A stretch of 64,000 nt of DNA from Nitrospira sp. (GTDB taxonomy: Bacteria > Nitrospirota > Nitrospiria > Nitrospirales > Nitrospiraceae). The translations under genes were made by a program, and so were the position numbers. A model generated the notes under the pieces. It was given only the letters and a program-made list of their open reading frames with translations. It ran no database searches and was not told the origin of the DNA. This document shows, piece after piece, positions 1 through 15,220 of this stretch; positions within the stretch are counted from its first letter, which is position 1, and each line of letters opens with the position of its first letter. The DNA lies in the NCBI GenBank assembly GCA_022226935.1, contig CP092081.1, forward strand, positions 2,430,627 to 2,494,626. The letters run 5' to 3'.

Positions 1-608
1 ACGCTCTGAAGCTCCAGCATAAGCAGCGCCAGGCGCTGATTGACATCATCATGGAGATCCCGGGCAATCCGCCGACGTTCCTCTTCCTGGGCCGTGAGAA
101 TCCGGCCGGTCAGCGTATGCAACTGCTCCTCGCTCCGCTCCAACGCCAGGCGGCTGGCGGCCAGATCTGCTGTCCGCCCTTCTACCCCTCGCTCCAGCCG
201 CTCGTTGATTTGCTCTAGAAGTCGTTCCGTTCGGCGACGCTGATAGACAAACACCACCGGCGCCCATACGCCGAAGAGACTGAACAGGTGATTGACCCAT
301 TCAAACCATGGGGGAAGATTGGGAATCCTGGGACTGAAGGGAGCGGCAATGATCGTCAACAATGAGCACGCCGTGGCGGTGGCAATCGGCAACCATCGGT
401 AGTGGCTGGCGGACGACAGGAGCACGACCGCGCTGTAGAGCACCGCGTTCGCCACGCCTAGCGGCAACTGAAGATCCAGCACAAAAAAGAGACCGGCCAG
501 CAGACCGGCGAGTCCGACCAGGAGCCGCTGGCGCTGCTGCGCCTTGGCATCGGTCGGCCGGCCGAGCATCTCACCCGTCTCGTCCTGACGTAAGTTGAAA
601 GGCGCCAT
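1..608 (-). CDS. NarL-type sensor histidine kinase, 3'-truncated by window edge
   Basis: Reading leftward from ATG at 608, an open frame runs off the window after about 202 codons. Residues about 25-110 hold several hydrophobic segments (membrane sensor region). A charged, probably coiled linker follows, then a HisKA_3 phosphoacceptor box reading ARDLHDDVNQRLALL close to the edge. In this family the His of RDLHDD is autophosphorylated and passes phosphate to a NarL/LuxR response regulator; the ATPase domain should lie outside the window. The start follows an extended -10 box (TGCTAAAAT) by nine bases with no Shine-Dalgarno, so the mRNA may be nearly leaderless. The ligand sensed is unknown. 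Confidence 0.8.
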   Translation of the reverse strand, partial: MAPFNLRQDETGEMLGRPTDAKAQQRQRLLVGLAGLLAGLFFVLDLQLPLGVANAVLYSAVVLLSSASHYRWLPIATATACSLLTIIAAPFSPRIPNLPPWFEWVNHLFSLFGVWAPVVFVYQRRRTERLLEQINERLERGVEGRTADLAASRLALERSEEQLHTLTGRILTAQEEERRRIARDLHDDVNQRLALLMLELQS

Positions 609-10399: not shown

Positions 10400-11172
10400 C
10401 CCGCAGGCGCAGCATCGATCTGAATTGTGACCTCGGCGAAGCGTCAACGCCTGAGCAACAGGATGTGGAGGCTCGTCTCATGCCGTACGTGACATCGGTG
10501 AATATCGCGTGCGGGGGCCATGCAGGCGACGCCGCACTGATGCGCAGTACTATTCAGCTGGCCAGACAGTACGACCTGGCGATCGGCGCGCATCCCGGGT
10601 TACCTGACCGGGAATTCCGCGGGCGTCGCGAACTGCCGCTGTCGCAAGGGTTCGTGCTGGACGTCATCCTCTCACAGGTGACTGCGTTGATGGCGATCGC
10701 TCAAGCGGAAGGCGTCCGCCTCTCGCACGTGAAACCGCATGGAGCCCTCTACAATATGGCGGCACGCGATCCGGCGCTTGCAAATGCGGTCGCGGCCGGT
10801 ATCGCCCAGCTCAACCGGCGGTTGATCCTGATCGGATTGGCCGGCTCCCAACTGCTCACCGCCGGAACGGCGCATGGGCTGGCGGTCGCCGCAGAAGGAT
10901 TCGCCGATCGAGCCTACCAGGCCGACGGTCGTTTGGTACCCCGGACTGACGCCCCTGCCCTGATCCATGATGAATCGACCGTGCTTGCCCGAGCCCACTC
11001 ACTGGTGCATGAAGGCACTATCACGGCTATCGATGGGTCATGCCTTCATCTCGACATTGATACGCTCTGTCTCCACGGCGACACTCCCGGAGCCGTCCGG
11101 CTGGCCCATGCACTGCGAACGATGTTCGCCGATGGCGGAGTTTTTGTAAGGCGACTCGATCATGCCGACTAA
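10396..11172 (+). CDS. pxpA: 5-oxoprolinase subunit PxpA (LamB/YcsF family)
   Basis: 258 residues from ATG 10396. IDLNCDLGE at the N-terminus, NIACGGHAGD near residue 40, IGAHPGLPD, and VKPHGALYN are the classical LamB/YcsF signatures. PxpA cleaves the phosphorylated 5-oxoproline intermediate made by PxpB/C. The start is fixed by the ATGA overlap with pxpB; a much longer open frame upstream is only the pxpB shadow. Its 3' end overlaps pxpC by 11 bases. Confidence 0.93.
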   Translation: MTRRRSIDLNCDLGEASTPEQQDVEARLMPYVTSVNIACGGHAGDAALMRSTIQLARQYDLAIGAHPGLPDREFRGRRELPLSQGFVLDVILSQVTALMAIAQAEGVRLSHVKPHGALYNMAARDPALANAVAAGIAQLNRRLILIGLAGSQLLTAGTAHGLAVAAEGFADRAYQADGRLVPRTDAPALIHDESTVLARAHSLVHEGTITAIDGSCLHLDIDTLCLHGDTPGAVRLAHALRTMFADGGVFVRRLDHAD

Positions 11173-12127
11173 ACCACCGCTGATTCATGTGCTGCATCCC
11201 GGCCTCTTCACCACCGTGCAGGATCTCGGCCGATGTGGTTACCAGCGATTCGGCGTGTCGGTGAGTGGAGCGATGGACCCTTGGGCGCTCCTGGTCGGCA
11301 ATCGCCTGCTCGGGAATCCGGATCGGGCCGCCGCGTTGGAGATCACGCTCCACGGTCCTGAACTGTTGTTCGAGCAGGCCCTCACGATTGCCCTCACCGG
11401 TGCCGACCTTTCCCCGACCACCAACGGCTTCGCCATTCCCATGTGGACCGTGGTCGCCATGCAGGCCGGCAGCCGGTTACAGTTCGGGACGCGGCGGCAA
11501 GGTGCTCGCGCCTATCTCACGGTGGCGGGCGGCATCACGGGGCCGATGATGCTGGGAAGCCTTTCGACGCATGTGCGGAGTGGATTGGGCGGGCTGGCAG
11601 GCCGAGCGGTGAAGAAATGGGATCAATTCTGCGTTGGACCCGCGCCACGAACAGCCGCGCAGTCCATTGGTCGCTCACTGCTGGAACGATATCGGCCGCG
11701 GTATACGAAGTCCCCCACCGTACGAGTCATGCCGGGCCCGCAATCAGACTATTTTACGGACGACGCCGTTCAACTGTTGACCAGCAGTTCGTACCGAGTG
11801 ACGACAGAATCCGACCGGATGGGCTATCGTTTGGAGGGAGCTGAACTCCCGCATCGTGCCTCAGCGGAGATCGTTTCCGAAGCGGTGTGCGTCGGAAGTC
11901 TTCAAGTCCCGTCGAATCGACAACCGATTCTCCTGATGGCAGATTGTCAGCCGACAGGCGGGTATGCCAAGCTCGCCACAATGATCAGCGCGGATCGTTC
12001 GCTGGCCGCGCAACTGGCTCCCGGCGACAGCCTGTCGTTTCGAATGATCAGCGCACAGCAGGCATCTGAACTGTTTCGGTCACACCATGCCGAACTTGAT
12101 CGCATCCTTCCCCCCTGCTGTTCATGA
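11162..12127 (+). CDS. pxpC: 5-oxoprolinase subunit PxpC (KipA / biotin-dependent carboxyltransferase-like)
   Basis: 321 residues. VLHPGLFTTVQDLGRCGYQRFGV and VSGAMDPWA at the N-terminus, and GPQSDYF with SDRMGYRLEG further on, are the KipA/AHS2 hallmarks. It is the third subunit of 5-oxoprolinase and completes a pxpB-pxpA-pxpC operon with overlapping genes. The short N-terminus before LIHVLHPG supports the chosen start. About 130 bases of apparently empty sequence follow before the next promoter. Confidence 0.93.
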   Translation: MPTKPPLIHVLHPGLFTTVQDLGRCGYQRFGVSVSGAMDPWALLVGNRLLGNPDRAAALEITLHGPELLFEQALTIALTGADLSPTTNGFAIPMWTVVAMQAGSRLQFGTRRQGARAYLTVAGGITGPMMLGSLSTHVRSGLGGLAGRAVKKWDQFCVGPAPRTAAQSIGRSLLERYRPRYTKSPTVRVMPGPQSDYFTDDAVQLLTSSSYRVTTESDRMGYRLEGAELPHRASAEIVSEAVCVGSLQVPSNRQPILLMADCQPTGGYAKLATMISADRSLAAQLAPGDSLSFRMISAQQASELFRSHHAELDRILPPCCS

Positions 12128-12224
12128 GACAAAACCTTCAACGGCAGAGTCTTTGCGTGGACCGGTGCCGGTGATTCGCGCGCAGCCCCATCGAACGAGA
12201 GGGGCTCTTCAAGGCGCGGAGTCC

Positions 12225-12252
12225 TTGACATTGCCCTGAAGCGATCTATTAT
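12225..12252 (+). promoter_or_regulatory. sigma-70 promoter, leaderless type
   Basis: A perfect -35 TTGACA (12225-12230) is separated by 16 bases from TATTAT (12247-12252). ATG lies seven bases further on at 12260, where transcription itself is expected to start. No Shine-Dalgarno can fit, so the message is predicted to be leaderless. Confidence 0.65.
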
Positions 12253-12259
12253 TATTCGT

Positions 12260-12460
12260 ATGGACACCACACTGACTCCTCGACAAATTACCCACGATGA
12301 GAAAAAAGCGGCTGAGGCCGCTTTCGCTGGTCGCCCATTCAATCCCAAATGGTCTGACGCGGCTCGCATCGTCTACGACGGCCTACTCGCCGCGATGGGG
12401 AAAGAGGCTCGTGCCGTCGACACTCACGACGAACTCGAGCCGGTTGAGCCGCTGGCTTAA
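12260..12460 (+). CDS. small hypothetical protein
   Basis: 66 residues, cytoplasmic, with no signal peptide or membrane segment. The sequence has a helical look (THDEKKAAEAAFAGRPFNPKWSDAAR in two parts) with an acidic tail (HDELEPVEPLA). I do not recognise the family. The gene is supported by a near-perfect promoter whose transcription start coincides with the ATG. It runs convergent to the large nucleotidyltransferase gene. Confidence 0.6.
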   Translation: MDTTLTPRQITHDEKKAAEAAFAGRPFNPKWSDAARIVYDGLLAAMGKEARAVDTHDELEPVEPLA

Positions 12461-12559
12461 TCCTCTCGTTGCCGTTCGGTCGCCAAGGGTGCGCAGATGC
12501 CGCCCCTCTCTCACCTGTCGCCATCGCAGTTGCGTGGCATCATCACGACGCGCACGAAG

Positions 12560-15220
12560 CTACGACGTTGAGGGCCGTCGCCCGATCAATTCCTTCACCA
12601 GAACCCGCTCCTCCGCTTCACTGTGTACCTCGCCATTTAACCGCGCTTCGGTCAATCGCTCCAAGATAGTGCGGTAGAGAGGACCAGGCTTCAATCCAAG
12701 GGCCTGAAGCGCCTTTCCCGTGAGGGCCGGCTTTACGTCACGATACGTGGTGAGATACTGGGACAGATACCGTTTGGCAGTGTCAGAGGCGTTCTTCGCC
12801 AGAAGGAACACCAGGCACTCCTCTGACAAGCCGTCCAAAATAGCGACCGTGTCCGACGGCCGGAGAGGCGCGCGCCGGGTCAACGTCCGGCACACCGGCT
12901 GCGTAAGGAATCGCGCCTGAGTGATGGCCGCCCGCTCCGCCTCGGTGAAGGGAAATCGCTCGAGCATGTCGCGGACGGCTTGATCCGGCATGATCTCCGC
13001 GAGAGCCATGGCATAGACGACCCATCCGTTGATGGTCCGATCGAGACAGGACAGCCGATACCAATCCAACGCCGCTTCCAGGTCGCTGAGTCGTCGATCC
13101 AGCCGAACAGACCACGCCAACGTCGGGTGAATAAACCGCAACAGATCAAGATCGGCCAACCGGCGGACCGCCTGCCTGGGAGTGCGCTCGGAAAACAGCA
13201 ACCGCAGCTCATCCAAAAGCCGCTGACCGGATAATCGATGGAACAGTTCCATCTTCACCGCGCCCTTGATGAGGGCCAACGTTTCTTTACTCAAATGAAA
13301 GTCGAATCGCAGTTCGAACCGGATGGCCCGAAAGACCCGCGTCGGATCTTCGACAAAACTCAGACTATGGAGCACGCGGATCAGACGCTCTTTCAGATCG
13401 CGTTGCCCACCATAAAAATCGATGAGTTGACCGAACGTTCGAGGCCGCAGCGCCACTGCCAACGTATTGATGGTGAAGTCGCGTCGGTACAGGTCCTTCT
13501 TGATGGAGCTTTGCTCCACGGTCGGCAAGGCTGTCGGATACTCGTAGTACTCGGTACGGGCCGTCGCCACATCCACCTTAAACCCGTCCGGCAGGAACAC
13601 CACGGCCGTTCCAAACCGCTCGTGCACCTTGACGCGGCCTGTACGCGCCTTCGCAAGCGCGCGCGCAAACGCGATGCCATCCCCCTCGACGACCAGATCA
13701 ACATCGAGATTCTCGAGGCCGAGCAACAGATCGCGGACAAATCCTCCGACCACATAGAGGGACAAGCCCAGCCGTTCTCCCAATTCACCTGACGTCTGCA
13801 GCAAGTCATATATGCGAGCAGGGAGCCGATCGCGCAAAAGCCCTTTCAGATCCCGTTTTCGCACTCCCCCGGGAGCCTCCAACCCCATCAACGATTTCGG
13901 TTTACCGCGCGCAGACGCCAGTACATCATCATGCAAACTGCGAAGCAGATCGGTTCTCGTGATGACGCCGACCGTCTTGCCGTCGGACAACACCGGCACG
14001 AAACGTTGATTCAATTCAATCATCCGTGTCTCGATGTCATGGAATGGCGTGTCGGGCAACGCGCTGTATTGTCCGCTGCCGGCCAGATCCCCCACTCGCT
14101 GCTCTCCCAGCCGATGAAACAGCGCTTTCTGAACGGTCTCCCGTGAAATCATGCCGAGGTATCGATCTTTCGTATCGAGAACCGGCAGCACGTTGACACC
14201 GTAGGTGGTCATGGACCGTTCCGCCTCCGTCACCGTTGCATCCGCGACAATCGACTTGACCGGCGTGGTCATCACATCCCGGGCCAACAACGTCGGGCGG
14301 TACCGTTCGGTCAGCAGACGGGTCAGTTGTTCCTGCACTTCCACCAGCGTACGGCCCTTGACGCTGGCGGCGGCTGCCACGGCATGTCCGCCGCCACCGA
14401 ACTCGCGCGCGATCCAGGCCACGTCGATCTCCGGCCTGCGGCTCCGTCCGATAATCTGAACCTTCTCTTCCATCGCAATGGCTACGATGACGGCATCAAA
14501 GCCTTGCAATTCCGCGAGCCGCTGAACCGCTTCAGCAAGGTCGCCCGTATAACGATCGTAGGCGCTCGAGGCGACAAGGATTTTGCGGCCTTCCAAGTAG
14601 TAGGTCTCACCCGATTGAAGCAGATCGTTCAGCAAGGCAATGAGATCCGGATCAAGCGGATGCTTGAGCCTCTCTGCGACCCGGTTCAAATCGGCGCCCG
14701 CGCGCAGGAGACATGCTGCCGCTTCCAAATCCCGCGGCGTCGTCGAGGGGTAGGCCAGCGAGCCTGTTTCTTCATACAAGCCCATTGCCAGCACCGTTGC
14801 TTCAGCAGCGGTAAGTGCGATTTGCTGCGATTTCAGGCGCTCGATCAGCAACGTCACCGTGGCTCCCACCGGTTCGATATGCCGTTCCGTAACCGACGGC
14901 CAGGCCGAAATCTCTGCTCCTTCGCCGGTTCCATGATGGTCAAATACATGGACATCCAGGTCCTGACGCACACTCAGTACCTTCAAGGGACCGATCCGCT
15001 CGGGCTCTTGAACATCGACCAGGATCAACCGGCGCACCCGCTCCAACGCCACATCCTTGAGGCGGCAGATGCCCAAGTCGTGCTCGGCTAAAAAGTTTCG
15101 AACCGACTCTTGCGCGCCGCCGGGAAACACCAGAACAGCACCGGGATATAGTTTCCGAGCCGCCACCATGGAAGCCAATCCGTCGAAGTCGGCATTCAAG
15201 TGAGTAGTGATGAGATCCAT
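12560..15220 (-). CDS. DHH / CBS / tRNA nucleotidyltransferase (poly(A) polymerase head) fusion
   Basis: 886 residues with three modules. The N-terminal DHH/DHHA1 phosphoesterase domain (about 1-310) has DFDG at 11-14 and VFDHHGTGEGAE (DHH 94-96). A CBS pair (about 315-440) begins at LARDVMTTPV. The class II nucleotidyltransferase head and neck (about 475-880) carries LYVVGGFVRDLLLG and the catalytic LDVDLVVEG. Enzymes of this architecture add all or part of the CCA end of tRNA; in Aquifex the protein with these extra domains is the A-adding partner of a separate CC-adding enzyme. Only one such gene is in the window, so CCA- and A-adding cannot be distinguished. A TAGAAT box lies just before the ATG. 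Confidence 0.88.
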   Translation of the reverse strand: MDLITTHLNADFDGLASMVAARKLYPGAVLVFPGGAQESVRNFLAEHDLGICRLKDVALERVRRLILVDVQEPERIGPLKVLSVRQDLDVHVFDHHGTGEGAEISAWPSVTERHIEPVGATVTLLIERLKSQQIALTAAEATVLAMGLYEETGSLAYPSTTPRDLEAAACLLRAGADLNRVAERLKHPLDPDLIALLNDLLQSGETYYLEGRKILVASSAYDRYTGDLAEAVQRLAELQGFDAVIVAIAMEEKVQIIGRSRRPEIDVAWIAREFGGGGHAVAAAASVKGRTLVEVQEQLTRLLTERYRPTLLARDVMTTPVKSIVADATVTEAERSMTTYGVNVLPVLDTKDRYLGMISRETVQKALFHRLGEQRVGDLAGSGQYSALPDTPFHDIETRMIELNQRFVPVLSDGKTVGVITRTDLLRSLHDDVLASARGKPKSLMGLEAPGGVRKRDLKGLLRDRLPARIYDLLQTSGELGERLGLSLYVVGGFVRDLLLGLENLDVDLVVEGDGIAFARALAKARTGRVKVHERFGTAVVFLPDGFKVDVATARTEYYEYPTALPTVEQSSIKKDLYRRDFTINTLAVALRPRTFGQLIDFYGGQRDLKERLIRVLHSLSFVEDPTRVFRAIRFELRFDFHLSKETLALIKGAVKMELFHRLSGQRLLDELRLLFSERTPRQAVRRLADLDLLRFIHPTLAWSVRLDRRLSDLEAALDWYRLSCLDRTINGWVVYAMALAEIMPDQAVRDMLERFPFTEAERAAITQARFLTQPVCRTLTRRAPLRPSDTVAILDGLSEECLVFLLAKNASDTAKRYLSQYLTTYRDVKPALTGKALQALGLKPGPLYRTILERLTEARLNGEVHSEAEERVLVKELIGRRPSTS

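Follow-up and report, generated by a model that had tools for sequence, protein, structure and literature searches.

Within a 64,000-nucleotide stretch of a 4.23-Mb Nitrospira genome (G000:C1:2430627-2494626, hereafter the window), a small gene beginning at position 12260 is probably expressed from a leaderless mRNA. It would be transcribed from a sigma-70-type promoter with its start at, or no more than about 2 nt from, the A of the ATG; we put the probability of this reading at about 0.88, taken together with the arrangement being ancestral, selected and set against paralogues led by Shine-Dalgarno (SD) sequences. The prediction that the first base of the message is the A of the ATG itself, or that at most a leader of 1-3 nt precedes it, is well supported by the sequence. 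In the proposed mechanism transcription from this promoter would deliver a 5'-terminal AUG, which would be recognized directly by a ribosome loaded with initiator tRNA, with no SD pairing. The arrangement would be ancestral in the Nitrospirales and under selection, and paralogues sharing the domain within these genomes would give rise to ordinary SD-led messages. The arrangement, its conservation, the absence of an SD sequence and the contrast with the paralogues are read from sequence, and from these we infer where the RNA would begin and how the ribosome would enter it.

On direct reading of the plus strand the promoter elements follow one another up to the ATG at 12260, and the locus is laid out as follows:

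11162..12127, plus strand, upstream neighbor coding for a carboxyltransferase CT_A_B protein (Pfam PF02626), syntenic in same-genus loci
12219..12259, plus strand, conserved promoter block, from -41 to -1 relative to the ATG (identity across 25 same-genus loci)
12225..12230, plus strand, -35 element TTGACA (direct reading, consensus scan), with TTGAC in 80/80 orthologue loci
12231..12246, plus strand, 16-nt spacer, with a genus-level identity of 0.93
12247..12252, plus strand, -10 element TATTAT (direct reading, consensus scan, conservation)
12253..12259, plus strand, 7-nt discriminator TATTCGT (direct reading), with transcription predicted to start within about 2 nt of 12260
12260..12460, plus strand, ORF for a 66-aa helical hairpin protein conserved in the Nitrospirales (open reading frame, orthologue search, model)
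12560..15220, minus strand, convergent downstream neighbor coding for a DHH-CBS-polyA polymerase (CCA-adding type) protein (Pfam matches)

The sequence-only reading had described a near-perfect promoter, TTGACA-16-TATTAT, with an ATG after seven bases, upstream of a small "conserved-looking" protein. The first of these descriptions is exact, with the hexamers scoring 11 of 12 consensus matches in the consensus scan and the spacer of 16 lying within the 16-18 nt sought for sigma-70-type promoters, and the second is borne out by an orthologue in 28 of 29 same-genus genomes. The A of the ATG is the 8th base past the -10 element, whose first T lies 13 nt before the ATG. A second TATTAT, at 12250-12255, overlaps the -10 element and has a spacing of 19 to the -35 element. 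In the 1.9-kb region the consensus scan recovered three promoter-like sites, compared to a shuffle mean of 0.4. No SD-like string was seen before the ATG on direct reading.

Such an arrangement is rare in this genome. The strict pattern TTGACA-16..18-TATNAT occurs at 10 sites (5 + 5) in 4,229,538 bp, with 0 + 0 for the reversed-pattern control, and only two of the 10, those of the 66-aa gene and of gpsA, have an ATG 5-8 nt past the -10 element. The remaining eight include ordinary leadered genes, which from their translations we take to be, for example, rpmH and an SD-bearing rhodanese-like gene. A looser rule, shaped on the first 50 orthologue loci (TTGAC[ACT], 16 or 17 nt, TAnnnn, 5-9 nt, ATG), is matched by 4 of 15,314 ATGs when 464 kb of this genome are scanned, the 66-aa gene being one of the four. 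Hence, the rarity of both patterns argues that the arrangement at 12260 did not arise by chance.

The protein was matched in 54 of the 61 genomes that were searched. The same-genus orthologues comprise 27 full-length versions (67-100% identity over 66 aa) and one cut by a contig end, with G014 having a paralogue only. In a sample of 198 genomes from the phylum, 58 gave a match. Of these, 56 are members of the window's own family or order, and in the remaining two the match is confined to the C-terminal region; the gene family hardly extends beyond the order Nitrospirales. Among named records the protein is closest to those of Nitrospira, one being Candidatus Nitrospira defluvii (FP929003.1, with the gene at about 1,123,654-1,123,851). 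The same arrangement of promoter and ATG also accompanies an orthologue on a contig labelled Nitrospinota (L205), reflecting either transfer or a binning error. In the same-genus loci identity is 0.95 at codon position 1, 0.98 at position 2 and 0.79 at position 3; by its conservation, which stops short of proving translation, the 66-codon ORF is a real and strongly conserved Nitrospira gene.

In the model of the 66-aa protein, residues 12-23 and 33-48 form two confidently predicted helices and the ends are loose (mean pLDDT 74.5). Searches with this protein recovered no Pfam or NCBIfam family, no sequence relative in the PDB at E up to 1 and no plasmid match. The 22 orthologues from outside the genus are longer, at 194-244 aa, and carry a C-terminal alpha-beta region whose likeness is to DUF6573 (PF20213), with L029 scoring 30.7 bits, over the cut-off of 27, and L028 falling below it at 22.3. 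In contrast, the window protein consists of the N-terminal hairpin only and is not matched to PF20213. A search for PF20213 gave no match in the window's genome; among 23 same-genus genomes it found a single instance, a separate gene in G015. The DUF6573-like C-terminus is thus missing in the window's genus, which would mean that the N-terminal part alone was kept there and the leaderless start retained with it. Fold comparison of the long form with the PDB gave no convincing match (0 of 528 at E <= 0.001), and our literature search found no paper naming DUF6573; a regulatory role for the protein, or one within a protein complex, would be a guess.

The geometry of promoter and start codon is maintained in every orthologue locus examined. 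The looser rule fits all 50 loci of the first set (28 of the same genus, including the contig-cut one, and 22 others), 20 of 20 held-out loci from the later phylum sample, and 10 of 10 further orthologues, of which eight were scored by the automated rule and two, missed by the protein pattern, were read directly. This gives 80 of 80 loci from three families of the order, 30 of them obtained after the rule was fixed, though these loci share descent and are not independent events; the first 70 yield 60 different promoter 42-mers. An SD of five or more bases was found at none of 50 orthologue starts. The 23 loci from named genomes (L197-L219), which in part repeat genomes already counted and do not include the same-genus records L180-L196, divide cleanly into 17 that fit the rule without an SD and six with an SD that do not fit it, with none mixed.

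The fine structure of these starts has features on both sides. In 70 orthologue loci the -10 element is separated from the ATG by 6 nt in 21, 7 nt in 44, 8 nt in four and 9 nt in one. A -10-like TANNNT about 12 bp before the start codon is present at 12260 and is kept, as the looser TAnnnn, in all 80 loci. The base preceding the ATG is a pyrimidine (T or C) in 70/70 loci, as against 71% of 292 predicted ATG starts of the same genome; this is in line with a Y(-1)A(+1) start at the ATG, albeit in loci related by descent and in a genome where a pyrimidine at -1 is already common. In 35 of the 70 there is no purine at all from the 6th base after the -10 element up to the ATG. Counting against a leaderless message, the -10 hexamer is often poor outside the genus (TATCTG, TAACTG, TATCAA), and in G047 the orthologue (L043) has a second in-frame ATG three codons further up with GGAGG 8 nt ahead of it, possibly marking a shift towards SD-led initiation.

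We then consider where conservation begins. The mean pairwise identity of 25 same-genus loci (L026 and L027, with a different spacing to the ATG, being excluded) is 0.35 at -100..-60, 0.45 at -60..-42 and 0.81 at -41..-36, and reaches 0.95 in the -35 element, 0.93 in the spacer, 1.0 in the -10 element and 0.90 in the discriminator. The fourfold-degenerate sites of the ORF stand at 0.79, and identity is 0.43 just past the stop. The drop to 0.35 at -100..-60 therefore leaves no conserved upstream promoter or leader. Conservation thus starts at the -35 element itself, while the promoter of a leadered gene would be expected to lie further up.

The paralogues furnish an internal control. Most of the genomes encode one or two additional short hairpin proteins, the window's genome having two, and a subset of 22 of the matched paralogue loci was taken for comparison. 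None of the 22 fits the rule, and 20 have an SD of 5-6 bases before the ATG, the exceptions being L032 and L092. The bacteria concerned therefore do use SD sequences. Furthermore, the absence of the abutting promoter from the paralogues implies that it marks the orthologue rather than the hairpin domain. The suggestion of a leaderless message, originally made from this one site, is accordingly strengthened in its predicted form by the 80/80 geometry, the lack of an SD, conservation ending at the -35 element and the opposite arrangement of the paralogues.

The conserved block could in principle be coding, with the protein starting upstream and the promoter-like string falling within its N-terminus (in-frame VLDIALKRSIIIR). 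For most same-genus loci the upstream frame is indeed open over at least 13 codons, and the block matches codon positions 1 and 2 in its degree of conservation. Yet the upstream stretch has no ATG, GTG or TTG, a stop lies just above it in many loci, and in other genera the promoter pattern persists over upstream peptides that are unrelated. L026 and L027 differ in frame over the block but keep the -35 element, spacing and -10 element. With no in-frame start codon and the frame lost in these two loci, we rejected an upstream coding extension, which we consider exceedingly improbable. That the block is chiefly an operator, or a site for another regulator laid over the promoter, with its nearness to the ATG incidental, would account for the spacer's identity of 0.93 exceeding the 0.79 of fourfold sites within the genus. 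Between genera, however, the spacer is lost, whereas the -35 and -10 elements and the distance to the ATG are kept; moreover, the unrelated gpsA promoter has a spacer that is likewise conserved in the genus, so such conservation is nothing special, and an operator is unlikely to be the chief explanation.

The remaining alternative concerns the neighborhood, where the true promoter might lie further upstream or the gene might belong to an operon with the CT_A_B gene, yielding a leadered, SD-less message, with the abutting promoter weak or used occasionally. The CT_A_B gene, presumably PxpC-like (pxpC), is on the same strand and ends 97 nt before the -35 element; no intrinsic terminator was found on the plus strand between the two, and read-through could add a leadered transcript. 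The order of CT_A_B gene, 66-aa gene and convergent DHH-CCA gene recurs throughout the genus, L026 having CT_A_B fragments only. In other genera of the family the DHH-CCA gene alone is a neighbor, in many but not all loci, and in other families of the order neither neighbor was seen in the loci available, which are short enough for a distant neighbor to be missed. As the promoter is kept in the other-genus loci tested, none of which has the CT_A_B gene as its upstream neighbor, it is independent of this neighbor; with the upstream sequence being essentially unconserved (0.35-0.45), we regard a leadered message as the main product as very unlikely. Two kinds of RNA structure were also set aside. 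An Rfam scan of 11900-12800 for a structured leader found a single match, at chance level (20.3 bits where the gathering score is 98), and the 5'-most 60 nt of the predicted message showed no advantage in folding over shuffled sequences (z 0.73), which speaks against a special 5'-end fold; the AUG is free in the centroid fold of these 60 nt.

The leaderless start predicted at 12260 has a counterpart in the same genome at a gene that we take from the N-terminus of its translation to be gpsA. Like the 66-aa gene, it has a promoter abutting its start (TTGACA-18-TATAAT, 8 nt, ATG; G000:C1:1779276-1779316; L137, L140) and a predicted leaderless start. In contrast to the 66-aa gene, the arrangement is limited to 13 of the 25 same-genus loci, the majority of the remainder lacking such a promoter at the start, and the leaderless start of gpsA would therefore have been gained or lost inside the genus. 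In a survey of starts predicted by a home-made caller, with genes under 80 aa left out, 3 of 252 starts with intergenic space of 40 nt or more have a promoter-like pair 5-9 nt upstream. For TAnnnT -10 elements the background is roughly 1-2 matches per position, which is slightly exceeded at 6 nt with six starts; 7 nt and 8 nt have two starts each. This suggests a minor leaderless class in the genome, with the excess too weak for sizing it. In the genome sample three more predicted genes (L056, minus-strand 2023; L055, plus-strand 11085; L070, minus-strand 9622) lack an SD and have their promoter-like pair 6-8 nt ahead of the ATG.

Leaderless messages have been described in many bacteria, and whether leaderlessness matters for a given gene is seldom clear. 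One tentative and rather doubtful proposal is that here it is itself the function and for that reason maintained over the order: any regulatory consequence would come from output being tied to conditions favoring initiation at a 5'-AUG (initiation-factor balance, altered ribosomes, starvation or slow growth) or to the initiating nucleotide, while the SD-led paralogues would supply the hairpin under normal initiation. If true, nitrite oxidisers would possess a built-in pair sensing the state of translation. The two kinds of gene in any case offer a natural matched pair for asking when an SD-using bacterium needs a leaderless message, and the analysis brings to light a family of conserved small proteins that neither Pfam nor NCBIfam covers.

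Among the matches listed for literature on Nitrospira/Nitrospirae, none deals with leaderless genes or the mapping of start sites in Nitrospira, and in PMC7291052, as far as its text was available, "leaderless" is confined to the reference list. According to the available text of the survey by Zheng et al. (2011, PMC3160421), leaderless genes occur in 207 of 953 bacterial genomes, forming a widespread minority class in bacteria. The present start resembles the "TA-led" genes described there, which have a TANNNT-like -10 element about 12 bp before the start codon and no SD. It differs in its phylum: Nitrospirota does not appear in that survey's list of leaderless groups, nor "Nitrospir" in its main text, and leaderless starts are here predicted for it. 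Leaderless genes are thus a known class; what is new is this member, the depth of its conservation and the control provided by SD-led paralogues. It further differs from other "TA-led" genes in that the arrangement is maintained in one gene family throughout an order, beside paralogues that are SD-led.
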